A stretch of 64,000 bases of DNA from Ehretia macrophylla (taxonomy: Eukaryota; Streptophyta; Magnoliopsida; Boraginales; Ehretiaceae), in assembly GCA_037974665.1 (NCBI GenBank), contig CM075773.1, forward strand, positions 47,570,080-47,634,079. Reading direction: 5' to 3'. Position numbers and translations under genes: made by a program. The notes beneath the pieces are model-generated. The model saw only the letters and a list, made by a program, of their open reading frames with translations. It was not told where the DNA came from and did no database searches. Each line of letters begins with the position of its first letter. Position 1 is the stretch's first letter. Below are positions 13,551 through 44,376 of this stretch, piece by piece.

Positions 13551-13583
13551 CATTCCATATAGTTTCATAAAAAGTATAGAATT

Positions 13584-14192
13584 ATGGCTGAGACAAGAAC
13601 AAGCAGCCTTTTTGTTCACCAGCTTACTGGAGAACACTTGTATGGCCAGTCCAATGTCATGTATATGATGATAATGAACTGTCTTTCTTTGCAAACCTAC
13701 AATTTGCCTACTCTCCTTACAATTCTTGCTTTCATTGTCCCAGTGATTCTCAACTTTCTGCAGTTGAAATACCTAGCCAATAATGAATCTCCCTTCGAGA
13801 CCCATCCAGCAACAATGTTCATTGCCATAACAAGTCTCCTCATATTTTGCTTGGTATGTAATGTTTTGTCGAGAATGTCATCGACGACCAATCCCTCCCA
13901 TCGTTATGCCAAACTTGTTCAAAAAAGTATGGTCTTTTTTGGTACTCTAGCAGTGGCAAGTATTTACTCCATTTTTCTCCCAAACTCTTTCCGCCCCACT
14001 CTATATTTGATCCCCATTTGTTTTTCAGCAGGTGACATTCTATACACCAAATTTTGCTCATTCTGGAGAGCTATGGTTAACATCCTGCAGCAGCCACCCG
14101 TGCAACAAAGATATAGAAGAGTACCCTTGATTCACCAAACTAGGGTTTTGCCACGGATTGATACCTACCAAGTAGATTCACTTCTTGTGTAA
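13584..14192 (+). CDS. Small four-helix membrane protein, array copy A (intact)
   Basis: An intact single-exon gene of 202 codons whose function I do not recognise. The N-terminus reads MAETRTSSLFVHQLTGEHLY and looks cytosolic or luminal. Four hydrophobic stretches follow at about residues 40-61, 76-95, 114-132 and 138-157, so a membrane protein is likely. The tail is basic and polar (RYRRVPLIHQTRVLP) and ends in DSLLV. It has about 88% identity with the protein at 41221, with one single-residue gap on each side, and the broken copy at 24696 is its closest local neighbour. The start codon is fixed by alignment with all truncated copies. Upstream lies a 123-bp tandem repeat instead of the family's TATTTAAG box, so its expression may differ. 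Equal length and an intact frame in two diverged copies argue for selection; the function is unknown. Confidence 0.8.
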   Translation: MAETRTSSLFVHQLTGEHLYGQSNVMYMMIMNCLSLQTYNLPTLLTILAFIVPVILNFLQLKYLANNESPFETHPATMFIAITSLLIFCLVCNVLSRMSSTTNPSHRYAKLVQKSMVFFGTLAVASIYSIFLPNSFRPTLYLIPICFSAGDILYTKFCSFWRAMVNILQQPPVQQRYRRVPLIHQTRVLPRIDTYQVDSLLV

Positions 14193-17975: not shown

Positions 17976-18452
17976 CTAAATGGATAATAGAACTCCAAAT
18001 AGAAATAAGAAAAAGACACAAGTATATACTTAAATATAGCAAGTCGATCATGCTCAAACTCCTTGCACCTGAAATTGTCTATCTAAAGATCAATCACGAT
18101 AAATTCTGCACCTTTTTTTTAGTTTTTTTTTTTTTGGTCAGAAAGCTCTTGCACCTATTTTTGCCTATTTAAAGAGTAAAGGTCATTAATTAATATTAAA
18201 AGTGCTCAAGCACTAATTCCTAGACAGCATAATTAAATGGCTTTTGTTAACTAACTTAGGGTCACGCTGAAAAATGATAATCAGATGTAGTACTGCTTTT
18301 ATGCATGTAGACTCTAGCATGTTTGGAGTTTAAATTCGCTCCTTCATAACACGATTCAGCCCGTTTTAGTAGTGGGGCATGCTATCTATTTTCAATCGAT
18401 CATGTGGGCTCTACACATAGAAGTTTTCATTGACGATATTGCAGCTAAAATG
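17976..18452. other. Non-coding stretch
   Basis: The array module piece with GACACAAGTATATACTTAAA is at 17975-18040. T-rich runs lie near 18112-18136. No gene. Confidence 0.4.
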
Positions 18453-18464
18453 TATTGTGAGTCT

Positions 18465-18538
18465 TGATGAAGCCTTGTAAATTATTTTGAGTTTGGACTT
18501 AATGAAAATCTTTTACTTCTCCAGCCAAAAAAAAAAAG
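18465..18538 (+). mobile_element. Severely truncated LINE tail nested in a LINE
   Basis: About 75 bases ending in a run of eleven A's, flanked by the direct repeat GTATTGTGAGTC (18453-18464 and 18538-18549). The host sequence on both sides belongs to the RNase H region of an older LINE fragment. This is a target-primed insertion of a 3' end only. Confidence 0.7.
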
Positions 18539-18955
18539 TATTGTGAGTCGGCTTCTTAGGCAGAGGCATGCACTAGCTTGTCTATCAGCATGTGAGATGG
18601 TTGCATCTTGTGGTCTTCCACAGTGTTTTATAGAGTCTGATGCTTGTACAATCATCAAACCTCTTTCGGAAATTCATGATTCTAATTGGAGGATTTCTTA
18701 CATTAGTCAGAACTTTCTATATCTCTTATCTTTTAATTATCACGACCAAACATTTAGATATGTTCGTTGACTAGCCAACTATGTGGCGAATTGAATTATT
18801 ATGGCAATTAGGATAGGTTCCCTTCCTCCAAGGGGATTGTAATTTTTCCTTGGATCTATTTTAGTTTTAACAATTAGATGATTAATCTTCGGAGTTCGGA
18901 CGATGGTTAGTGTTTGTGTTAATAAAGTTTTCTTTCCAATTAAAAAAAAAGAGTA
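18539..18955 (+). mobile_element. LINE 3' fragment with RNase H-like tail
   Basis: A frame from 18543 reads like the C-terminal RNase H domain of plant LINEs: LACLSACEMVASCGLPQC, an IESDACTIIKPLSEIHD segment, then NWRISYI, and after frame loss SANYVAN-like sequence. It ends in an untranslated part and an A-rich tail at 18940-18951. The 5' end is missing and the frame is broken. The sister fragment is at 4227-4455. Confidence 0.7.
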
Positions 18956-19116
18956 CGTGCTTATGGAAGCAATAATGTTTTAATGAACAGACAAACATGC
19001 AACTAAAACTAAACAGGTAACTTGCCCGTTCAAAATTTGTGGAGATGGAAGGTATTGGGAAGAGAAAGGGGAAAATTATTAGTTTATGCAGAAGAAGAAG
19101 CCAAGATTGCTTGGAT

Positions 19117-19180
19117 TTTTTTTTTTTTGGTAAAATGAGGGGTTCTTCCTTCCTGGTATTTTATTAATATCAAAAGAAAA
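19117..19180 (-). mobile_element. LINE or SINE tail inserted into a duplicated segment
   Basis: A T run (minus-strand poly-A) at about 19118-19132 is followed by about 50 bases including ATTTTATTAATATCAAAA. The flanks carry the direct repeat AGATTGCTTGG. The sister segment at 4610-4625 has the uninterrupted AGATTGCTTGATTAATTG, so the insertion happened after the segmental duplication. Confidence 0.75.
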
Positions 19181-19589
19181 GATTGCTTGGTTAGTTGCAG
19201 ACGAAATAAGATATTAATTCTTTAAAAAACTAAACAAATCAAAGTTTTGTCTAATCTTTGCTTATTATAAGTAAACCTATCTACTTCGTCGTCTGTTAAT
19301 TAAAACATCATTCCCTGCAATTCACTTTTACTAGTATATATGTTGCACTCTATTAACAATGACTCTAAATATCTGATAGAACTTCAAAAGGGAAATAGAT
19401 AACGAGACAAGTATATGTTTAAATCAAGTCTATCATGCTAAAACTCTTTGCACCATCAAGTACTCTATGATCATGGTAACTTAATGCTAGCTCGTTTTCT
19501 TGTTCGCAAGCAAAGGGTATTTGATATCCACGAGACCACATCATCAACATGCATAATTGTCAAAGCGGCCATGTATTCTTTACAGTTAT

Positions 19590-19965
19590 GGCATAATTAG
19601 GAAACATTTTATTATAGAACAAGCCATTTTCTTCACCTGCTGCTCATTGCGTGATCTACGACTACTGCATATGCCTATCTTACCATTCGTTCGTCTTTAT
19701 ATATGTGACTTTATATGTTAGAATATAAAGTTCTACACACAAATGAACCGTATGAATTTATAAGGTAGACTTAAAATAATATAACCAACTCATCTATGAA
19801 TGAGATATCCAACATATTTTATAAATTCACGGTAACATACATAATGAAAAAATATTTCAACAGTAGGTGCAACAATGATAAAATTCTACTATTAGAAATC
19901 CAATTAGTGCATCGCAGATAGTACATAAACAATCTGCTTATGGCATAAAACATCTACATCTTCTC
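19590..19965. pseudogene. Module with a vestige of the membrane-protein gene start
   Basis: AGAACAAGCCATTTTCTTCA at 19617-19636 is the segment for residues 4-10 of the gene family, as at 30530 and 37826. No more of the gene remains. About 19790-19930 aligns with 30600-31070 and includes the uninterrupted target ATATCCAACATATTTTA for the insertion at 30625. Confidence 0.6.
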
Positions 19966-19970
19966 TCTAC

Positions 19971-20345
19971 TGTTGGAATATCTATTATTCCTTTTATATC
20001 GAAAAATCACCAACTCAAAAACCACCTTATAAGATTATGGACTACTTCAATTAGTAACAATTAGTTTTAAGATGAAAATCTATGATACTTAATATAGTAT
20101 CAGAGCTGGGCCTCCAGTCGTATTCATCTACGTGTGACCCATCTGTTTTGTTTCGTTTCGCTCTCATTGACTTATTTTTTTCTCAATGTCAGCTCGATTC
20201 TTGTTGATTGGGTCACACGTGAGGGGGTGTTGAAATATACATTTCTCTCACATTGGAAAACTAACTTAAAGATCAACTTATAAGATTATGGACTACTCCA
20301 TTTAATATTAATTGATTTTAAAATGTAAACTTATGGTTGTTAACA
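19971..20345 (+). mobile_element. Complete TRIM (terminal-repeat retrotransposon in miniature)
   Basis: The left LTR is 19971-20094 (starts TGTTGGAATAT). A primer-binding site follows (TAGTATCAGAGC, cf. the usual TGGTATCAGAGC of initiator tRNA-Met). A short non-coding interior ends in the purine run GTGAGGGGG, and the right LTR is 20228-20345 (TGTTGAAATAT to TTAACA). Direct repeats TCTAC at 19966-19970 and 20346-20350 are the 5-base target duplication. It looks structurally whole but never coded for protein. Confidence 0.85.
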
Positions 20346-20443
20346 TCTACAGTGTTGTGAAGAATTTCCGGTGAAAAAATTAAAAAGACTTCAAATGAAA
20401 GAGTACATGTCATGATGCTTTTGAAAGTAACTAACACAAGGCA

Positions 20444-20745
20444 AGGGTTTGGAAATAACACAAATCGTCCCTATTATTTTATCCAAATTTTAAATTTGTT
20501 TTTACTATTAAAAATTAATTAATTTGGTCCTTATTATTTAAAAAAAAATTAATTTAGTCCTTGCACATGATTTAATTTGTAGACTAAATTAAAATTTTTA
20601 AAAAAATAATAAAGACTAAATTGACTAATGTTGAATAATAAGGACGAATGAATTTTTTTAAAAATAATAGGAGCTAAATTAATTAATTTTGAATAATAAC
20701 AACAAATCTAAAATTTTAAGAAAACTATGGAATTGACATTTTCCA
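20444..20745. mobile_element. Fold-back element with short sub-repeats, copy 1
   Basis: The left half repeats units like TTTGGTCCTTATTATTTAAA. The right half carries the complement (AATAATAAAGACTAAATTGA), giving a long imperfect hairpin. The flank to the right (20745-20890) is shared with 32925-33075, so copies 1 and 2 were partly duplicated with their surroundings. Confidence 0.6.
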
Positions 20746-20946
20746 TTTTCCATTTTCTTTCGTGTCGTCTTATTAATTGCTTTGTTGAAAAAATCTGATC
20801 CCGGTAGTTTTGTCGAACATGCTTTCTTTGCCCAACCTAAAACATGGTTCCTCTATCCGAAACCTCTTCTAAACCTTTCCACTTAAGTGCACCATAGGTC
20901 AAAGAAAAAGATATGTGTTGATATAGACATCAACCTGCACGTAGGG

Positions 20947-21053
20947 TATAATGACTTCACGTGTCTAGTTAGTTATAACTGGAATTGGCTAATGCAATTG
21001 GTATGTGAGGTGTTGAGCTTATAAAAGGAGAAGGAAGGTACATAACAAAGGAA
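20947..21053 (+). repeat. Left 107-bp direct repeat of the gene-capturing element
   Basis: Nearly identical to 24030-24136, spanning TATAATGACTTCACGTGTC through CATAACAAAGGAA and including the TATAAAAG box. The high identity suggests the element is fairly young compared with the array around it. Confidence 0.9.
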
Positions 21054-21183
21054 GCAAACACTATCTTATTTCTATCTTGTTCTTCTTTCTTTTAATTCTC
21101 TGTAATTTTTCTTTCTTTTATGTCTTTCTATTCTTGCTCAAATTACTAGTTCGTTATATTGGTGCTTTCATTGAGAGTCGAAC

Positions 21184-21381
21184 ATGGCGGAAGGAATGAG
21201 CCTCGCTGCTAATGGTGATTTTTGCCTATACTATCCCTATCAACAAGGTGATTATCAACAATATTACCAGCAACACTACTACCCCTATCAACACTACTAC
21301 CCCTTTCACCAATACTACCCATATCAGCAATACTATTACTATCACCAGCCACAAATTACACCACCATCTTTTGATTCATAG
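21184..21381 (+). CDS. Tyr/Gln-rich short open frame at the head of the element
   Basis: A 65-codon frame begins with ATG shortly after the presumed primer-binding region. After MAEGMSLAANGDF it becomes almost pure Tyr, Gln, His and Pro (repeats like QHYYPYQ). It has no family I recognise. Low-complexity composition makes a function doubtful; it may be the start of a captured host gene or an element-specific leader peptide. Confidence 0.35.
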   Translation: MAEGMSLAANGDFCLYYPYQQGDYQQYYQQHYYPYQHYYPFHQYYPYQQYYYYHQPQITPPSFDS

Positions 21382-21420
21382 CAACCAAAAACTCCACACA
21401 CTCAGTCGGCTCTAGACGAG

Positions 21421-21888
21421 ATGGAGATCAGGTGGAAAGCTTTACAATTCAAGTACTGCCCGACCCAGTCCCTGACCCAAATCCAAGACGCCGATGATGC
21501 CGAATTTAGTGAGGAAATGTAGCGTAACAACGTGGCTGAATTGGAGAAGAAGTGTGTTGCAGGATTGAAGACTCAAACGGCGATGGCTCGGGAGATTGAT
21601 GAACTTGTAGGCGAAAAGAACGAGAGGGAAAAAAGAATCGAGAGTTTGGTCGATGAAAGGAGCTTGGTGAAGAATGATTTGAGTGAGGCATTGAAGTGAT
21701 TAGGCTAGCAGAAGTGTGAAATCGAGCAACTAGTTAATGAGAAGATTGAGTTGGCTGAGGGTGTGGAGAGACAAGAAAATGTCATTGTCGAGTTGTAGAA
21801 GAATGTGCAAGAATTTAGAGATGATATTCAAGAACTGAAAAATTCTTGCAATGGTCAAACAGAGAAAATCAAGAACTTGGAAAAGGCA
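21421..21888 (+). pseudogene. Captured coiled-coil gene fragment
   Basis: The frame reads as a charged heptad-rich sequence (AREIDELVGEKNEREKRIES, then VDERSLVKNDLSEALK and similar) typical of a long coiled-coil protein. The donor gene is not recognisable. It is intron-free and broken, inside the gene-capturing element. Confidence 0.55.
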
Positions 21889-21960
21889 CATGAACTGTTT
21901 GATAAAATGCCTAAAACGAGTTCCATTTCTTATACTTCTATGCTAATGGATTTGGCGAGT
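21889..21960 (+). pseudogene. Captured PPR-repeat fragment 1
   Basis: [20 protein letters not shown] matches the core of a plant pentatricopeptide repeat (typically ARELFDKMPxRNxxSYTSMI). Only about 24 residues are present, fused between the coiled-coil and MSH2 pieces. Confidence 0.6.
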
Positions 21961-21996
21961 GAGTTGTTTGTGAAGATTATTTATACAAATGTTGTT

Positions 21997-22500
21997 TGTG
22001 GAGTTTCAACTTGTATGCAAGAAATGCTGGAAATTGCTTCAATATTAAAAGGAGCTACAGCCAAGTCATTGATAATAATTGATGAGTTGGACAGGGGAAC
22101 ATCTACTTACGATGGATTTGGCTTAGCTTAGGCCATCTGTGAGCACATTGTTAGAGTGATTAGAGCACCCACTCTGTTTGCAACTCACTCTCATGAGCTA
22201 ACAACATTAGCTCATGGAAACGGTGGTGATGGGCAATCTTCAGGCAAAATTGGTAGTGTGGCAAATTATCATGTTAGTGCACACATTGACTCATCAAGTC
22301 GCAAGCTAACTATGCTTTACAAGGTTGAACCAGGTGCTTATGACCAAAGTTTTGGGATTCATGCTGCAGAGTTTGTCAACTTTTCAGAAAGTGTTGTCAC
22401 ACTTGCTAGACAAAAAGTTGTTGAGTTGGAAGATTTCTCACCTAGTTCTGTTACACCAAATGATGACAAAAAGGTCATATTTAAGCGGAAGAGGGTGTTT
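21997..22500 (+). pseudogene. MSH2: Captured MSH2 C-terminal ATPase fragment
   Basis: This corresponds to the ATPase end of the mismatch-repair protein MSH2. It contains [20 protein letters not shown], the Walker B region ([20 protein letters not shown]; the family has DELGRGTS), the THSHELT region and the helix-turn-helix segment with [20 protein letters not shown] and [11 protein letters not shown]. It runs uninterrupted by introns over about 165 codons, although plant MSH2 genes have introns, so it was copied from mRNA. It is a broken fragment with no N-terminal mismatch-binding domains. Confidence 0.85.
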
Positions 22501-22502
22501 GT

Positions 22503-22612
22503 GGCCTGAGAGAGATGTTATTGCAACTAATGCAATAATTTCGGTTTTGCGTAAATATGGGTACATTGAGAAGGTGAAGGAGTTGTTTGATAGTAGGACT
22601 GAAAAAAGAGGG
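22503..22612 (+). pseudogene. Captured PPR-repeat fragment 2
   Basis: The segment [20 protein letters not shown] followed by IEKVKELFDSRTEK fits one pentatricopeptide repeat of the plant PLS type. It lies between the MSH2 and alanyl-tRNA synthetase pieces and is too short to name the donor. Confidence 0.6.
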
Positions 22613-22621
22613 TTATTGGTA

Positions 22622-23427
22622 GATGTTGAAGGTTTTAATGCCACCATGAATGAAGCAAGAGAAAGATTAAGGAACGCCCAGAATAAATGAGCTGGTGGTG
22701 CTATCATTATGGATGCTGATGCTACCGCGACATTGCACAAGAAAATGATTCCTATAACAAATGATGGCTTCAAATTTACATGGTATCAGGACCATGAAAG
22801 TGTGATAAGAGTGAGTTCTTGCAAAGTACTGATAGTGGTGATGAAGTTAGAATTATCCTCGCAAGTACTAGTTTCTACGCTGAGCAAGGTGGTCATATAT
22901 ATGATACTGGACTTCTTGAAGGCTCTTCCGGATCATTTAATGTTTGTAATATTCAAATTTTTGGGGGCTATATTCTTCATATTGGTTCGTTTGATGGGGA
23001 CAGTAGTGGATTTACTGTTGGTGATAAAATGTTTGGTAAGGTTGACTATAGCAGGCGTACGCTTATTGCTAACAACCATACCTGCACTCACATGTTTAAT
23101 TTTGCTCTCAGGGAAGTTCTTGGAAATCATGTTGACTAGAAAGGTTCTATTGTTCTCCCTGAGAAGTTGAGATTCTATTTTGCACACGGTAAGCCTATGA
23201 AGCCCGAGGAACTGAGAAGAATTGAATCCATTGTGAATGAGCAAATAAAAGCTGAATTGGATTTTTTTTCAAAGGAGGCAACCTTGACTGATGCAAAGCG
23301 AATTAACAGTTTACGAGCTGTTTTCGGACAAGTCTATCCTGACCCAGTTAGGGTTGTCTCAATTGGTTGGAAAGTGGAGGATCTCCTATCTGATCCGGAT
23401 AATGAAGAATGGAAATCAATATCAGCG
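22622..23427 (+). pseudogene. Captured alanyl-tRNA synthetase fragment
   Basis: About 265 codons of the middle of alanyl-tRNA synthetase. Landmarks are GFNATMNEARERLRNAQNK, then [20 protein letters not shown] and the [20 protein letters not shown] editing-domain motif (HxxxH type), then [20 protein letters not shown]. The enzyme charges tRNA-Ala and this part includes the editing region. It is intron-free, hence derived from spliced RNA. Different parts lie in different frames, so it is broken. Confidence 0.85.
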
Positions 23428-23655
23428 AATCGTGAAGTCGGCACTGGTTCATTAGGAGTTGTCTTCCAGGCGAAGTGCTTGGAAACAGGTAATGCTATTG
23501 CTATAAAGAAGGTGCTGCAAGATAGGAGGTACAAGACCAGAGAACTTCAAGTTGTGCAGTTACTTGCCCATCCTAATGTTGTGCAGATGAAGCACTGCTT
23601 CTATTCTACTACGGAAAAGAATAAGGTCTACCTGAACCTTGTCCTAGAGTATGTA
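23428..23655 (+). pseudogene. Captured GSK3/SHAGGY-type kinase fragment
   Basis: The N-lobe of a plant GSK3-like (SHAGGY/BIN2) kinase. It has the glycine loop [18 protein letters not shown], the catalytic-lysine region [18 protein letters not shown], and [15 protein letters not shown]. It stops before the catalytic loop. It is joined in frame to the preceding synthetase piece and to the glycosyltransferase piece after it. Confidence 0.85.
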
Positions 23656-23658
23656 TTT

Positions 23659-24015
23659 GAAGAAACGAAAGAACAAGGCCTAATTGCGAGATGGTACCCT
23701 CAAGGGGAAGTCCTTAATCATCCATCGATTGCTACATTTTTTATGCATTGTGGATGGAACTCCATGATTGAGAGCTTGACTAGTGGTGTGTCGATTATAT
23801 GTTGGCCATTTTTTGCTGATCAGCCGCTTAACTGCAAATGTGCATGAACCAAATGGGGTATAGGATTGGAGATCAATAGCGATGTCAATAGGGATGAAAT
23901 AGAGAAGCTTGTGCGGGACTTGATTGATGGAGATGAAGGAAGGTTTAAGGATACTATTGAGCAGGAAATTGTTGACTCGTACTCGGGGCTAAACCTTGAG
24001 GACAAAGTTCTTTCG
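23659..24015 (+). pseudogene. Captured UDP-glycosyltransferase fragment (PSPG box)
   Basis: This shows the plant secondary-product glycosyltransferase signature: [19 protein letters not shown], the [15 protein letters not shown] core and [15 protein letters not shown]. It continues to WGIGLEINSDVNRDEIEKLV, closest in feel to UGT85 enzymes. Only the C-terminal third is present. It is broken and intron-free. Confidence 0.85.
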
Positions 24016-24029
24016 AATGAGGGAAGTAA

Positions 24030-24136
24030 TATAATGACTTCACGTGTCCAGTTAGTTATAACTGGAATTGGCTAATGCAATTGGTATGTGAGGTGTTGAG
24101 CTTATAAAAGGAGAAGGAAGGCACATAACAAAGGAA
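24030..24136 (+). repeat. Right 107-bp direct repeat of the gene-capturing element
   Basis: This is the partner of 20947-21053. It lies immediately after the glycosyltransferase piece and lacks the flanking LTR-like sequence seen on the left, so the right LTR is incomplete. Confidence 0.85.
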
Positions 24137-24160
24137 ACATGAAACAAGCATGAAACAAGG

Positions 24161-24464
24161 TCTTACGCACCAATTGACTACCAATATACATCATGAGGGA
24201 AAAAGGTTTTTGATATGTAGGAAGAAAGTTCCCACTTGAAGCTTATTTTATTTTTTTCACAGGAGAAAAAAATCACTTTACATTAACTAGAATATTATAC
24301 GAAAATAAATTTTCTTACGCACCAATTGACTACCAATATACATCATGAGGGAAAAAGGTTTTTGATATGTAGGAAGAAAGTTCCCACTTGAAGCTTATTT
24401 TACTTTTTCCACGGGAGAACAAAATCACTTTACATTAACTAAAATATTATACGAAAATAAATTT
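24161..24464. repeat. Tandem duplication, 152-bp unit
   Basis: Two adjacent copies, each starting TCTTACGCACCAATTGACTA and ending near GAAAATAAATTT, with only a few differences. Non-coding; a recent local duplication. Confidence 0.9.
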
Positions 24465-24611
24465 CAAAATTTTTTACATTTAAAGTGAGAATCATATCAT
24501 TACACCAAATGACCTTACTGTTTTCCGAAGTCTTGTTTTGTCATAGGCGTTAACCTTTTTGACTTTTTAAATAAATTGGTCCCACGATTGTTTCGTTAGG
24601 TTCCCTAATTA

Positions 24612-24622
24612 GGTCTATTTAA
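24612..24622 (+). promoter_or_regulatory. Conserved TATA-like box of the gene family
   Basis: TATTTAAGCC lies about 80 bases before the (damaged) start of the copy at 24696. It sits at the same position as the box before 41221 and the one at 11621. Its role is inferred from position and conservation. Confidence 0.45.
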
Positions 24623-24695
24623 GCCAGCCTACGTGTTCCTTAATGTACTCTTAGCTCCCCTCATCCATATAGTTTCTTAAACAAGTACTTACCAT

Positions 24696-25310
24696 ATAGC
24701 AGAAACAAGAACGTCTCATGTTCACCAGCTTACTGGAGAACACTTTTATGGCCAGTCTAATGTCATCTATATGATGATTATGAACTGTCTTTCTTTGCAA
24801 ATGTACAGTATTCTGCCTACTCTCCTTACAATTCTTGCTTTCATTGTCCCCGTGCTGCTCAACTTTTTGCAATTGAAATACCTAGCCAAGACTGAATCTC
24901 CGTTCGAGACCCATCCAGCCACTATGTTCATCTGCATAACAAGTCTCCTCCTATTTTGCTTGGTATCTTATGTTTTGTCGAAAATGTCATCGACTAATCC
25001 CTCCCCACCTTATGCCAAATTTGTTCAAAAAGGTATGGTATTTTTCGGAACTCTGAGAGTGGCTGCACTATACTCCATTCTTCTCCCAGACTCTTTCCGC
25101 GCTATTCTATATTCACTCCCTATTTGTTTTTCAGCTGGTGACATTCTATACACCAAACTTTGCCCGTTTTGTGTTTTTTTCTAGAGAGTTGTAGTTAACA
25201 TTCTACAGCAGCCACACGTGCAACAAAGGTTCAGGAATATACCCTTGATTCATCAAACTAGGGTTTTGCCACATATTGATGCGTATTCAGTCGATTTACT
25301 TCCTGTGTAA
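24696..25310 (+). pseudogene. Small membrane-protein gene, copy B (broken)
   Basis: A full-length homologue of the genes at 13584 and 41221. The start codon position reads ATA instead of ATG, although the next codons match (AETRTSHVHQLTGEH). Near 25160-25185 extra bases replace the CSFWRA-equivalent region and bring in a TAG stop. Beyond it the tail resumes in the family frame (QQPHVQQRF, LIHQTRVLPHIDAYSVD). An internal ATG at 24771 could give a 137-residue product lacking the first 27 residues and the tail. It is most likely a pseudogene, though a shortened protein cannot be excluded. Confidence 0.8.
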
Positions 25311-25558
25311 CCATGGGCCGAGCGTACACTCATATAATAAGAGTATCATAAGAGGGTCAGTATGTATATTTATACTGTGAGGATGATCTAATATAATAAG
25401 TTCTTTTTTGCGGGAACAAAAAATAATTTTCTTTTCCCTAATATGTTTCTTTTCCCTATTAAGAGTGTTCTCTCAATACACCCTCATGTTGATGTAACTT
25501 TACTATTGTGTGTAACTGTAGTATTGGTGTAACAAAGTTAATGGATAAATGATATGAT
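25311..25558. other. 3' flank of copy B
   Basis: This stretch aligns with 14193-14440 behind copy A. There is no gene. The run TTTTCTTTTCCCTAATATG is locally duplicated near 25430-25460. Confidence 0.5.
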
Positions 25559-26020
25559 TGTTGTGATAGGCCTAGACTACTTTGGAGAACTAGAACTTAT
25601 GTAGGAAATATTTAGGAAGTGGAAGAGGAGAATTTTGGAGGAACTACAGAACTTGTATTGAAGAGAAAATTTTGATTTTGGCTTGGTTACAAATGCTTGG
25701 AGTTGCCCCCTATTTATAGGTGTTTAAGGAGCATTCTACACACAAGATATTTTGAAAGTACATGGAATATTCTAGGTAATATCCCTAGATCCTTCTAGCT
25801 AGTCGAAGATATTTAGAATAAATTAATTTTCTCCTAGACTCTTCTAGATAAATTTCTAAGATATTCTTCAAGAATTCTTCTAGAATTTGGGCTAGATAAG
25901 TTTTTAACTTGGGCTCTCAATTAGACCAACATTTTCTTTCTTTTGGACCAAATAAATGTTATAACTAGCCCAATACTTGATCATGAATACTTAGCCCAAA
26001 TTCAAGTTTACTTTCCAACA
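25559..26020 (-). mobile_element. Solo LTR with target duplication (copia-like)
   Basis: A 462-bp unit from TGTTGTGATAGG to CTTTCCAACA, flanked by ATGAT at 25554-25558 and 26021-26025. On the minus strand it begins TGTTGGAAAGT and has a TATA box (CTATAAATAGG, about 25716-25726 on the plus strand as CCTATTTATAG). The sister flank of copy A shows the empty site with a single ATGAT at 14441. A whole, single LTR left by recombination. Confidence 0.85.
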
Positions 26021-26134
26021 ATGATTCCACGTTTTGATGGGTTTATGTTTCTGTTTTTGGTCACATGTTTTGATGGTTTGATGTATCCACTTAAATTTTG
26101 GAACTTCGATCAGTAGTTGATAGATCTTTTAGTA
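26021..26134. other. Flank between two insertions
   Basis: Aligns with 14441-14500 of copy A's flank, with a short local expansion around TTTTGATGG. Confidence 0.5.
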
Positions 26135-26537
26135 GGGTAATTTATCAACATGGTCCTAAATCTTTGTTTTTTTATATTTAAGTCCTCTATCTTTCATTTT
26201 TGACAGAATGGTCTTTCATCTTTCATTTTGGTGACAATCGTTAGTCGTTAGAGTAAAATCCGTCGAAAAAATAATGTTAGTGAACACGTGGATGAAACGT
26301 GGCCGCAAAATTCAAAAATCTTCAAGGATAAAATTGTCACGCGGTAAAATATTAGCATCTTAAAGTTTATGCATTTTGCGACACGTGCTCACTAACGTTA
26401 TTTTTTGATTAATTTTGCTCCAAGGATTAATGACTGTCACCAAAATAAAAGATGAAGGACCATTTTGTCCAAAATGAAAGATAGGGACTTAAATGTCAAA
26501 AAAAATAAAAATCTAGAATCATTTTGATAAATTACCC
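26135..26537. mobile_element. Mutator-type MITE with long inverted ends
   Basis: The 403-bp element starts GGGTAATTTATCAACATGGTC and ends GATAAATTACCC. The inverted repeats are about 100 bp on each side (left AAGTCCTCTATCTTTCATTT pairs with right AATGAAAGATAGGGACTT). Nine-base flanks CTTTTAGTA (26126-26134) and TTTTTAGTA (26538-26546) differ by one base, as expected of a Mutator target duplication. The sister flank at 14498 has the empty site. Confidence 0.8.
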
Positions 26538-26546
26538 TTTTTAGTA

Positions 26547-27309
26547 TTTGAAGGTTTGGTTAGTTGTGCAGTACAACAGATAATACTAATTGGGATTTAA
26601 TGCTTTAACAACATAATAACCTCAGAGATCCATGATAATGAATAACTCAAATGATTTCATCACTATTAATCTCCTCAATAACGTTATTGTTATGTTGTGA
26701 TTTTTGTTGGAGAAGTTGGGTTTTGATATAAGTGAGAGCATATTACACTCAATCTTTGAATGGGTCCTACTAGATCAAATGGGAAGGTCCGGGTACCATC
26801 ACAATTTTCTTTTAGCGTAGATGAACGTGATATATTTATATGTCAAAAACGGATTAAAGATGTATGAGAAATTAAGGGCTAAAGTGAATGATATGCGAGA
26901 TATCCCTTAGGGGAAAAAGTGTGAAGAAAAAGGTTTTTGCAATCTCACATAGAAGTGGGAACTCTCACCATAGTGGGTTCGGGTAAAATATACCGCGTGC
27001 GCGCCTGGCTTGGGTTAGGGCGAAGGTGAGGTGAGGGTAATAACACATACCATTTCTCAGTGGTTCATCACACATTTCAGAGCAATAGATAGGCACATTC
27101 TGGCATAGCATAGCATAGTTGAGAGAGTCAATGTTTGTTTTTCTTAATTACAAGGTTTGCACCTACGTTTATAATGTTTAGGGATTTAAATTGAAAGTGT
27201 CGCTGTGTTTTTTACTTTTTGCGTGCATGCTTAACAGAGAGATCTTTGTTTTAGGAATACAAAAAGAAGATGATAAACAGGTAATAAAGAAAGAGTCTCC
27301 ATCTATATA
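26547..27309. other. Non-coding module flank
   Basis: About 26547-26880 aligns with 14500-15120. A short GC-rich island at about 26985-27030 (CCGCGTGCGCGCC) stands out from its AT-rich surroundings but has no frame. A GGCATAGCATAGCATAG run lies near 27100. No gene. Confidence 0.45.
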
Positions 27310-40290: not shown

Positions 40291-41134
40291 TTCAACCCTT
40301 CCTTTTCAATACCAAGCATATCACCATTTTTTTGCCACTTAAAAATTGAATGAAATATATAACAAAGTCGAAAAACCAAGAAAAGGACTAATACAAAGGT
40401 TGATGATAAAAGCCTAAAATAATGTTGTCCTTGACAATATGCACCAATCTTTTCAATCCATCGATCAATTAATGCAAAGAAGGATGATCTATGGAGACAG
40501 AGATGGATTAAAAGAATCAGAAGATCAAGAATCCAAAAGGTGGAATTATCTTAAGGATGTGATCTCTTTCAACAGAGATTTAGCCGAAAAAGGTCTCACT
40601 TAAAGTTTTTTATGGAATCTTGCGGGGGTTAGGGGGCGGCGGGGGGTGGGGGGTTGTCGGGTCAACAATCATGCAACTTTATCTACTGTTACAACTTTCT
40701 TTACTTTATCTTGTATTCAAGATACGAGATACAAGATACAAGATACAAGATTTCTATATCTTGTATCTTAATTACTTGATATTTTTTTCTTTGACATTTT
40801 GTTTTTTCAACTTCTACAAGGCCTCTTTTCTTTTCTTTTCTTTTTTTTCTGTCAAACACCACATAGAAATAATCCCTAAATGTTTTCAGTCCATCAATTA
40901 CATGACAAATTTTAAAATATTTTCTCATAATATCATAACATTATCAATATACCCATCTCCGAAGAAGTGGGGCTGGGCCATATGATTTTTTTTTAGTCTT
41001 ACTAGTAATCAGAGTGCAAGAACGTCTATGCATTAGTTAACTGCCAAACCATCGTGGGGAAAAAATGTTTTTCTTTTTGGTCAAGTCTTTGTTGCGCCAT
41101 AATTGTTCAAATACGAAGCTTCCAACACTAGGGC
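40291..41134. other. Non-coding upstream region of copy C
   Basis: Bases 40305-40400 match 790-900. About 40790-40930 is inverted at 465-640. A G-rich run GGGGGCGGCGGGGGGTGGGG lies at 40632-40652. ATACAAGATACAAG repeats lie at 40720-40765 with a CTTGTATCTT complement. No other gene. Confidence 0.5.
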
Positions 41135-41142
41135 TATTTAAG
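41135..41142 (+). promoter_or_regulatory. TATA-like box of the intact gene at 41221
   Basis: TATTTAAG, 79 bases before the start codon. The same box and spacing appear before the copies at 24696 and 11707, although both of those are dead. Core-promoter role inferred. Confidence 0.5.
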
Positions 41143-41220
41143 CAAGCCTACGCATTCTTCATGTACTCATCTAAATCACTGATCACCTCATTCATATTTC
41201 TTCTTAACAAGTCATATTTC

Positions 41221-41829
41221 ATGGCCGAAACAAGAACAAACCATTTTGTTCACCAGCTTACTGGAGAACACTTGTATGGCCAGTCCAATGTCATGTATAC
41301 TATGATAATGAACTGTCTTTCTTTGCAAACCTACAATGTTTTGCCTACTCTCCTTTCAATTCCTGTTTTCATTGTCCCCGTGCTGCTCAACTTTTTGCAA
41401 CTGAAATATCCAGCCAAGAATGAATCTCCCTTCGAGACCCACCCAGCAACTATGTTCATCGCCATAACAAGTCTCCTCATATTTTGCTTGGTATGTTATG
41501 TTTTGTCGAGAATGCCATCGACAAGCAATCCCTCCCATTGTTATGCCAAACTTGTTAAAAAAAGTATGGTCGTTTTTGGTACTCTAGCAGTGGCAAGTAT
41601 TTACTCAATTTTTCTCCCAGACTCTTTCCGTCCTACTCTATATTTGCTCCCCATTTGCTTTTCAGCAGGTGACATTCTATACTCCAAATTTTGCTCATTA
41701 TGGAGAGCTATGGTTAACATCCTGCAAGAGCCACCCGTGCAACAAAGATACAGAAGAGTACCCTTGATTCACCAAACTAGGGTTTTGCCACAGATTGATG
41801 CCTACCAAGTAGATTCACTTCCTGTATAG
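41221..41829 (+). CDS. Small four-helix membrane protein, array copy C (intact)
   Basis: An intact single-exon gene of 202 codons, the same length as the copy at 13584. The open frame extends upstream to 41065, but the ATG at 41221 is the start shared by all family members (MAETRTNHFVHQLTGEHLYG) and follows the conserved leader. Predicted hydrophobic segments lie at about residues 40-61, 76-95, 114-132 and 138-157. A Pro-rich loop (NESPFETHPATMF) separates the first two, and the polar basic tail reads QQRYRRVPLIHQTRVLP. There is no signal peptide and no known motif, and I do not recognise the family. The canonical TATTTAAG box is present, so this is the copy most likely to keep ancestral expression. 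Differences from copy A are scattered and mostly conservative. Confidence 0.8.
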   Translation: MAETRTNHFVHQLTGEHLYGQSNVMYTMIMNCLSLQTYNVLPTLLSIPVFIVPVLLNFLQLKYPAKNESPFETHPATMFIAITSLLIFCLVCYVLSRMPSTSNPSHCYAKLVKKSMVVFGTLAVASIYSIFLPDSFRPTLYLLPICFSAGDILYSKFCSLWRAMVNILQEPPVQQRYRRVPLIHQTRVLPQIDAYQVDSLPV

Positions 41830-42729: not shown

Positions 42730-43356
42730 TTAATCCCAAGAGAAAAGCTCTCCAGGACAAAACTCACCGTAAATAGACTCAGCCTCTGCAATTTGCCATG
42801 GTGATTGATAGCAGAACTCATCAAATTGATGGCCAGAATTGAGGAAAAGATCAGGCAAGTCTAGGTAAAGATCATCATCATCGTTATGTGGTGGCGAAGA
42901 TGATGATTCTCTTGTTTGATCATCTGATGAAACCGCGCGCTCTGGCGTGCCAGGGACTAACAACTCATCTGGGCTGCAGACTGGTTCATGTTCATGGCTT
43001 GCTGGAATTTCCAGCGCCGCCGCTTCGGCTGCAGCAGATTGGATATCTTTCGGACAATTTGAGGCTGGGCGGGGCAGCAAATGAGCGAGTTCAGGGAAAT
43101 TAAGGTAAGCAGAGTGGCCTTTGATAGCAATGGCAGCAACATCATGTGCTCTGGCAGCCATTTCAGGTGTTGCAAATGTACCAAGCCATATTCTTGATTT
43201 CTTCCTCGGTTGCCGGATTTCGGACACCCATCTTCCCCAGCTCCTCTTACGGACGCCGCGATAAATGGGGTGTTTCCCATCATCGCTAATTTTCTTAGTT
43301 TTCTTATTGTTTTGGTAACCATCGTTGGTTATAACTTGGCTTTCTGAAACTTCCAT
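42730..43356 (-). CDS. AP2/ERF transcription factor, DREB group (A-4/TINY-like)
   Basis: A 208-residue, single-exon DNA-binding protein. The single AP2 domain covers about residues 31-90 ([20 protein letters not shown], then [20 protein letters not shown] and [16 protein letters not shown]). In the usual numbering residue 14 is Val, as in DREB proteins, and residue 19 is Gln rather than Glu. The SRIWLGTF and [10 protein letters not shown] stretches fit the A-4 (group III, TINY/ERF038-like) subfamily, which binds DRE/CRT-type and related GCC elements in nuclear promoters. The basic cluster NNKKTKK before the domain may be the nuclear signal. The C-terminal half is Ser- and Asp-rich with a [14 protein letters not shown] patch; LYLDL fits the EAR-like LxLxL pattern, so repression is possible. 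The tail ends GELFSWD. Length and lack of introns are typical of the family. Confidence 0.92.
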
Positions 43357-44376
43357 AATGGCCTCGTCTTTGATGATGCAAAAACCATATTTTTTTGTAG
43401 AAGAATGTGATGAAGAAGGAAGAATAATGAGGTGGTTTTTGAGCCTTATATCTCCAAAAGTGAAAGCTTCTTCAATGGTGGTCTTGGTAGAGAGGAAAGT
43501 TTAGTAGGCAAGCATGTGGGAGATAGAGCATAGATGTGGGCTACTTATAATTTCACAGAAACTGAAAATGAACCGTAAAAGAGAAAGTAAGAAACTCATA
43601 ATTTAGAGGGGGTAAAGAGAAAAGAAAAGTAAAAGAAAAAAAAAGATATAAAGAAGTGGGGCTATGATTTAAAGATACATAAATAGAAATACCAATATTT
43701 TTAATTTATTTTAACCAAACTTAATTTTAATTTTCTCTTAATAAAAAACCCAACTTGATTTGGAATGTTTAATTTGAAAATTAAGCATATGAAAATTTGA
43801 GTTCTAATATGGTTACACTCCATTGAGTCAATGTACTTGATAAAAATTAATTTACATAATTAATTGAACAAATATGCTTTCATTTAACTTTTTCAAAGAA
43901 AGGAATTTTATCTGAAACCCTTTTTCTAAACAAAGTTAATTTCAAAATAATTATGATAACATGTATTAAATAACAACTCATTCAAAATTTTAAGATGTTA
44001 CAGAAAAATTTATTATATTTATTTATTATCATCAACACATTCTCGTATGTGCAGGTGGAGTTTGTTTATTGATCTGGCACATGAAAACTTTTAGTGTCTT
44101 TTAAATGACTGGTGATAAGATTAGAACCAGAACCATTTGATAACTAAGATATGATACCATATTAAATTAGTATCTCATTTAAAAGTTAAACTAGTCCTTC
44201 ATCATGGTACTTCATATATGATATTATTAAACATGACTTTGGACTTTCATTTCATGATGTTGTTGTATCTTATTAATAGACTTATACACAAGTCAGATTA
44301 AATTACACGACTTGACTTCAAGGGTAAGAAAACAAATTTAAAAACATACATGTTTAGAATTTAGACACCTAAAATA
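43357..44376. other. Upstream region of the ERF gene and beyond
   Basis: Bases 43357-43560 are the probable leader and core promoter on the minus strand; 43541-43549 (CTTATAATT) reads AATTATAAG there. Purine-rich tracts follow at 43600-43650. About 44100-44200 resembles the tRNA-like repeat of 9525-9640 on the minus strand. No other gene. Confidence 0.4.

Follow-up and report, generated by a model that had tools for sequence, protein, structure and literature searches.

How can coding fragments of several unrelated host genes come to lie side by side, free of introns, between two copies of one short direct repeat? The question is raised by a locus of Ehretia macrophylla situated in a stretch of 64,000 nucleotides, here called the window, which covers C10:47570080-47634079 (contig CM075773.1) of the 1.58 Gb, 20-contig genome used for comparison. 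The locus, at window positions 20947-24139, is a non-autonomous long terminal repeat (LTR) retroelement, and very probably a decayed copy of one that was built by repeated mRNA template switching. An earlier note on this DNA had recognized a multi-gene retroelement resembling maize Bs1; it had missed that the element belongs to a family with differing gene sets and a bias toward one reading frame.

Spliced host gene fragments within the element

Pfam matches above the cut-off, all on the + strand, are MutS_V (two segments), tRNA-synt_2c, Pkinase and UDPGT, and no match was obtained among the ten longest of the 55 antisense frames. The donor genes sit elsewhere in the same genome, and nine introns of three of these donors, each with GT-AG ends, are absent from the element. 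The alanyl-tRNA synthetase (AlaRS) donor on C6 (L034) contributes seven of them, 70-1523 bp long over the captured span and missing at 22687, 22789, 22896, 23040, 23112, 23192 and 23331, the MSH2 donor on C7 (L044) one of 902 bp at 22323, and the GSK3-type kinase donor on C13 (L035) one of 170 bp at 23469. Of the nine, the AlaRS intron at 23192 has the poorest match (15/24 flanking bases, compared with 21-24 for the other eight). The MSH2 donor also shows two further probable splice sites, near 22121 and 22474. The donor of the UDP-glycosyltransferase (UGT) piece, also on C13 (L036, 93%), is itself without an intron over the captured span.

The earlier description of intron-free MSH2, AlaRS and GSK3-type pieces, with all pieces in the same orientation, is thus borne out by donors that possess what the element lacks and by the + strand position of every identified piece. 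Its count of 'five or more' host genes holds for four firm donors, MSH2, AlaRS, the GSK3-type kinase and the UGT, and beyond these rests on weaker pieces, namely pentatricopeptide repeat (PPR)-like stretches below the Pfam cut-off and a coiled-coil stretch which recurs at other family loci and for which no donor was identified in the genome.

Boundaries, terminal repeats and target sites

A direct repeat of 110 bp, 97% identical between 20947-21056 and 24030-24139, encloses the fragments. The 107-bp repeats first reported are therefore real and belong to a real LTR, but 107 bp as the length of the LTR is ruled out by full copies of 212 bp (20947-21158), of which the window's 3' LTR has lost about half to a deletion, and the limits formerly placed at 20916..24136 had to be corrected. 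In the paralogous copies L021-L025 the 3' LTR is complete, and the termini, TGTAAC..GTTACA in L021, have mutated to TATAAT..GTTATA in the window copy. The distance between the two LTRs is 0.034 to 0.130 in L021-L025 and 0.028 in the window over the remaining 110 bp.

Both outer LTR ends could be resolved at seven insertion sites, and four of these have an exact 5-bp duplication, TAGGG in the C10 group, TATAC in L027, CATTA in L030/L031 and CGACA in L032. TAGGG flanks both sides in L021, L022, L024 and L025 and has a single mismatch in L023. By their exact duplications, L027, L030 and L032 are insertions independent of that in the window. A site following the 5' LTR that resembles a primer-binding site (PBS), and a purine tract, are seen in sister elements as well; together with the TG..CA ends of sister copies and the 5-bp duplications they speak against the thought that the repeats might be stray promoter sequence. 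Direct LTRs with TG..CA ends and a duplication within the range of 4-6 bp place the element among the LTR retrotransposons. Neither a reverse transcriptase nor an integrase domain was found in the Pfam-scanned segments of the window or of the family, and an Rfam scan of the window gave 0 matches at gathering score.

Five more copies reside on C10, at 44.65, 45.55, 45.80, 47.10 and 48.01 Mb, all on the + strand and 92-95% identical. They share flanking DNA, ~3 kb on the upstream side and 2-3 kb on the downstream side (about 5-6 kb in total in the stretches compared), and L021 aligns to the window over 17976-27175 of a compared 9.5-kb stretch. Because the flank is common on both sides, a single insertion was later multiplied on C10 by segmental duplication, and separate insertions there are ruled out. 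A 152-bp tandem duplication (97%) at 24161-24464, directly after the shortened 3' LTR, occurs in the paralogous copies too.

A family with locus-specific gene sets

A genome search with the repeats, as the earlier note had suggested, uncovered further loci sharing the LTR, and at these the same LTR encloses differing sets of genes, as judged by Pfam scans of the family segments. The most composite, L038, joins TAF12, CSN4, cyclophilin, the FF domain of PRP40 and UGT in one frame of 716 aa, with MCM just below the cut-off. L027 holds pyruvate kinase, MIOX, FtsH and GSK3, L029 enolase, malic enzyme, UGT and PPR, and L033 MSH2, AlaRS and cyclophilin. Pairs are found in L026 (PPR and ribophorin II), L030 (thioredoxin and PPR), L032 (bromodomain and PPR), L037 (cytochrome P450 and GSK3), L042 (HSP70 and C2) and both L039 and L040 (RAD9 and MSH2), the latter two carrying the window's own MSH2 piece over the equivalent of 21983-22499. 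Neutral invertase was recognized in L041, eIF3d in L043 and an ATP-grasp domain in L028.

Introns are missing from these elements too. Compared with its element, the TAF12 donor (C15) has five exon gaps, four of them resolved to GT-AG, the pyruvate kinase donor (C12) likewise five with four resolved, and the FtsH donor (C2) one, which was resolved; the ribophorin II donor (C19) has five separate exons where the element is continuous. Blocks are common to many of the 13 elements compared, and L033 is a mosaic in which the MSH2-AlaRS block of the window is joined to the cyclophilin block of L038. L048, at first taken as donor of an oxidoreductase (MDHAR) piece, itself belongs to another element, in which a block common to L026 and L028 is joined to a piece resembling HSP70 by eye; the joint was dropped from the analysis of joints, and the substitution ratios given below were recomputed without it.

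Element length varies from ~2.6 to 4.6 kb, excluding LTR elements nested in L029, L030 and L032 that have their own LTRs of 166 bp, about 1855 bp and 510 bp respectively. The Copia-type gag and pol sequences in L029 and L032 belong to these nested elements, that in L032 with an exact AAGTT duplication. A census which includes partial matches and excludes places judged to be donors, and hence is an indication rather than an element count, gave at least 110 places in at least 101 clusters on all 20 contigs; merging of neighbours up to 1.5 Mb apart leaves at least 60 groups. The coiled-coil block of the window also lies within open frames of 1086 aa (C20:33614564) and 688 aa (C17:38270858), possibly long intact arrays.

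Joints and a common reading frame

At the three joints for which both donors are in hand, the donors share GCGGAGC (7 bases), TGAA (4) and TGGTGAACCA (10), the simulated chance of at least such a shared length being 0.0005, 0.018 and 0.00001, respectively. On the upstream side of these joints, the AlaRS, GSK3 and FtsH pieces end inside donor exons.

Around the variable middles, two ends recur: a start, in which ATG is followed by a leader that is Tyr/Gln-rich or of another recurring kind, and a tail (..YPGLNLEDKVLSNGGGNVT..) directly before the purine tract and the 3' LTR. Adjacent pieces tend to be in a common frame, which applies to 21/27 pairs of a strict list (1/3 expected, p = 3e-6) and, if only gene-gene pairs are considered and the tail is excluded, to 15/20 (p = 2e-4). 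The strict list was selected from the looser list given next by means of the Pfam cut-offs. It covers 12 loci and enters every kind of pair a single time, when first met, by which repeats favouring (such as PPR-tail of L029) as well as opposing the bias (both pairs of L039) are dropped. On a looser list, which includes hits below the cut-off (S4e, Pyr_redox_2, MCM, TPR) as well as an HSP70-copine pair judged by eye, 28/33 distinct pairs, or 31/38 counting every adjacent pair, are in frame. Indels after insertion lower such agreement. In the window, MSH2, the later part of AlaRS, GSK3, UGT and the tail share one phase. Open frames of 1023 aa (C16:13.745-13.748 Mb) and 1042 aa (C12:30.530-30.533 Mb), both located through matches to the two ends, hold start and tail in phase with each other.

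Compared with the donors, the ratio of non-synonymous to synonymous substitutions (dN/dS) is 1.32 for the window pieces and 0.80 for all pieces pooled over 762 codons, a set excluding the part of TAF12 outside the open frame (6 stops). To judge from these ratios, amino-acid sequence looks little constrained in the window's lineage, whereas the frame was respected when arrays were built.

Origin of the arrays

Spliced pieces in sense orientation, with microhomology at their joints, inside LTRs and short target duplications are what reverse transcriptase switching among co-packaged RNAs predicts. Reverse transcription would be supplied in trans by an autonomous element, and the enzyme would repeatedly switch at short shared words from the element RNA to co-packaged spliced host mRNAs, with further switches between element RNAs; such repeated capture and exchange would lead to blocks common to several elements. 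By this route spliced sense host pieces would have taken the place of gag-pol, leaving a short start on one side and a short pol-like tail on the other. Relatives of the tail close long frames at C4:16.52 Mb (1655 aa), C18:69.88 Mb (1638 aa) and C8:59.24 Mb (677 aa). The tail may resemble gypsy pol ends; Pfam gave no match in it. RNAs whose frame breaks early might be lost by nonsense-mediated decay, or be left untranslated and unpackaged, so that in-frame joints survive; a filter acting on RNA, be it this decay or a need to translate to the tail, is plausibly behind the frame bias.

Several observations weigh against this account. The sample of joints is small (n=3), and six of the 27 pairs on the strict list are out of frame, with the out-of-frame RAD9-MSH2 and MSH2-tail pairs of L039 uncounted, their in-frame counterparts in L040 having been counted earlier. 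The start frame of the window meets 23 stops before the LTR, 15 of them within a frame-shifted portion (22507-22795). With a dN/dS of 0.38, the L027 pieces are non-neutral, which may reflect constraint on the donor or on the copy. L026 is without a target duplication and L029 and L041 agree at 4/5 bases only, the PBS-like site matched no tRNA among those considered, and an autonomous partner carrying the same LTR was not found.

Of the other explanations, the one that survives best concerns the frame bias alone, which could stem from selection for a function of the fusion protein in the element itself, for example packaging via the conserved start and tail, instead of from RNA decay. The recurrence of start and tail around differing middles speaks for such a function, whereas neither end has a known one and the middle of the window copy looks near-neutral; this explanation appears possible, if rather doubtful. 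A host chimeric gene, selected for its fused protein and flanked by LTR-derived sequence, would agree with the long open frames and with the low ratio of L027. It is nonetheless improbable as a general account, as gene sets vary by locus, the frame of the window is broken and the window and pooled ratios are high, all the more because the donors' own constraint depresses such values. Even less credit can be given to separate processed pseudogenes, inserted one after another into one LTR element by retroposition of the long interspersed element (LINE) type: intron loss would follow too, but the identified pieces are all sense, tend toward one frame, have microhomology at three joints and recur as the same blocks and joints at other loci. 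Capture at the DNA level by a Helitron, Pack-MULE or CACTA element, elements that often hold host gene fragments (PMC13317346), is hardly conceivable with donor introns precisely missing and LTRs that have TG..CA ends and 5-bp duplications, features that argue against the terminal inverted repeats with 9-bp duplication of a Pack-MULE and the 5'TC..CTRR3' ends of a Helitron, so that the preference for mRNA template switching expressed in the earlier note stands.

The family may be structurally specialized for in-frame arrays, with start and tail held constant and a middle open to exchange, made of spliced exons from many unrelated housekeeping genes and filtered in each round for an open frame of ~1,000 codons. 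We would give even chances to the idea that this large recombining family is such a natural engine of exon shuffling, and not a series of rare accidents.

Relation to known gene-capturing elements

Maize Bs1 is reported as an LTR retroelement with three host genes and a chimeric gene formed from them (PMC13317346), its capture being of exons only (PMC4717578). The likeness to Bs1 proposed for this locus holds for the way of working, pieces of several host genes in an LTR retroelement, and is not meant as a claim of sequence kinship. Unlike Bs1 with its three genes, the family described here has locus-specific gene sets, with up to five genes above the Pfam cut-off (L038, a sixth just under it), and blocks shared by recombination; the mode is that of Bs1, extended to a whole family whose members recombine.

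Soybean GmaRetroS15, a small LTR element of the terminal-repeat retrotransposon in miniature (TRIM) type, similarly combines 5-bp duplications with intron-free fragments of three host genes (PMC4717578). Gene-carrying TRIMs measure 1,172-1,449 bp (PMC4717578) as opposed to the lengths given above with long, mostly in-frame arrays, and at ~3.2 kb with host-derived coding pieces, and long frames in its relatives, the window element does not fall under the definition of TRIMs as very small and without coding capacity. A survey of maize B73 listed 425 gene-capturing LTR elements with at least 189 captures and, under its own conditions, no single element that combined fragments of two or more standard nuclear genes (PMC2774510), in contrast to the several genes per element here. 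In pepper, spliced NLR mRNAs were captured by mostly non-autonomous LTR elements, a case that centres on the amplification of one gene class and mentions two to three genes per LTR element as cases to sort out (PMC5664825). Captures by Pack-MULEs and gene-carrying Helitrons commonly keep introns, unlike those of the window element. Both are DNA transposons that shuffle host gene fragments in bulk, with capture at the DNA level (PMC13317346).

In the literature surveyed, reports of a single LTR element capturing several host genes are few, and a search of titles and abstract openings, with most subscription journals outside its range, returned no paper on a comparable family. With many arrays and their intron-bearing donors in one genome, the rules of mRNA capture, such as microhomology length, sense bias, frame bias and exchange between elements, become statistically measurable. 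A true frame filter would explain how retroelements give rise to translatable multi-gene fusions, beyond pseudogenes, and would make a role of RNA surveillance testable.

Features of the element and its surroundings

Table 1. Coordinates of the element's parts within the window
Feature	Position	Strand	Basis or remark
5' target-site duplication TAGGG	20942..20946	.	3' partner gone here, present in paralogous copies
5' LTR, 212 bp, TATA-like box near 21020	20947..21158	+	LTR alignment
PBS-like site TGGTGCTTTCATTGAGAG adjoining the 5' LTR	21160..21177	+	first post-LTR bases alike in aligned elements
Reading-frame start: ATG, then Tyr/Gln-rich leader	21184..21381	+	like leaders in sister elements
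Coiled-coil-like stretch	21382..21880	+	common to other family loci
Short PPR-like linker, weak	21883..21963	+	E 0.15, below cut-off; like linkers in L030, L038, L040
Spliced MSH2 fragment (MutS domain V), start approximate	21966..22500	+	Pfam; donor L044 covers 22120-22475
PPR-like fragment, weak	22502..22598	+	E 0.012, below cut-off; E 0.002 in sister L023
Spliced AlaRS fragment	22599..23427	+	donor C6 L034; Pfam tRNA-synt_2c
Spliced GSK3-type kinase fragment	23425..23661	+	donor C13 L035; Pfam Pkinase
UGT fragment	23657..23943	+	donor C13 L036; Pfam UDPGT
Conserved tail (..VDSYSGLNLEDKVLSNEGSN) and purine-rich tract ahead of 3' LTR	23935..24029	+	tail recurs at other family loci
3' LTR, shortened in window copy	24030..24139	+	repeat and comparison with L021-L025

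Just upstream of the element, at 19971-20346, lies by eye a small TRIM-like element with two 87-bp direct repeats (77%) which encloses a PBS-like site, TATCAGAGC, and a purine-rich tract. An imperfect inverted repeat (78%, 104-bp arms) at 26134-26538 resembles a miniature inverted-repeat transposable element. Three gene-like frames (13563-14192, 24681-25184 and 41041-41829) encode a small membrane-type protein (MAETRT..HQLTGEHLYGQSNVMY..), and a minus-strand frame at 42730-43500 resembles by eye an AP2/ERF transcription factor.

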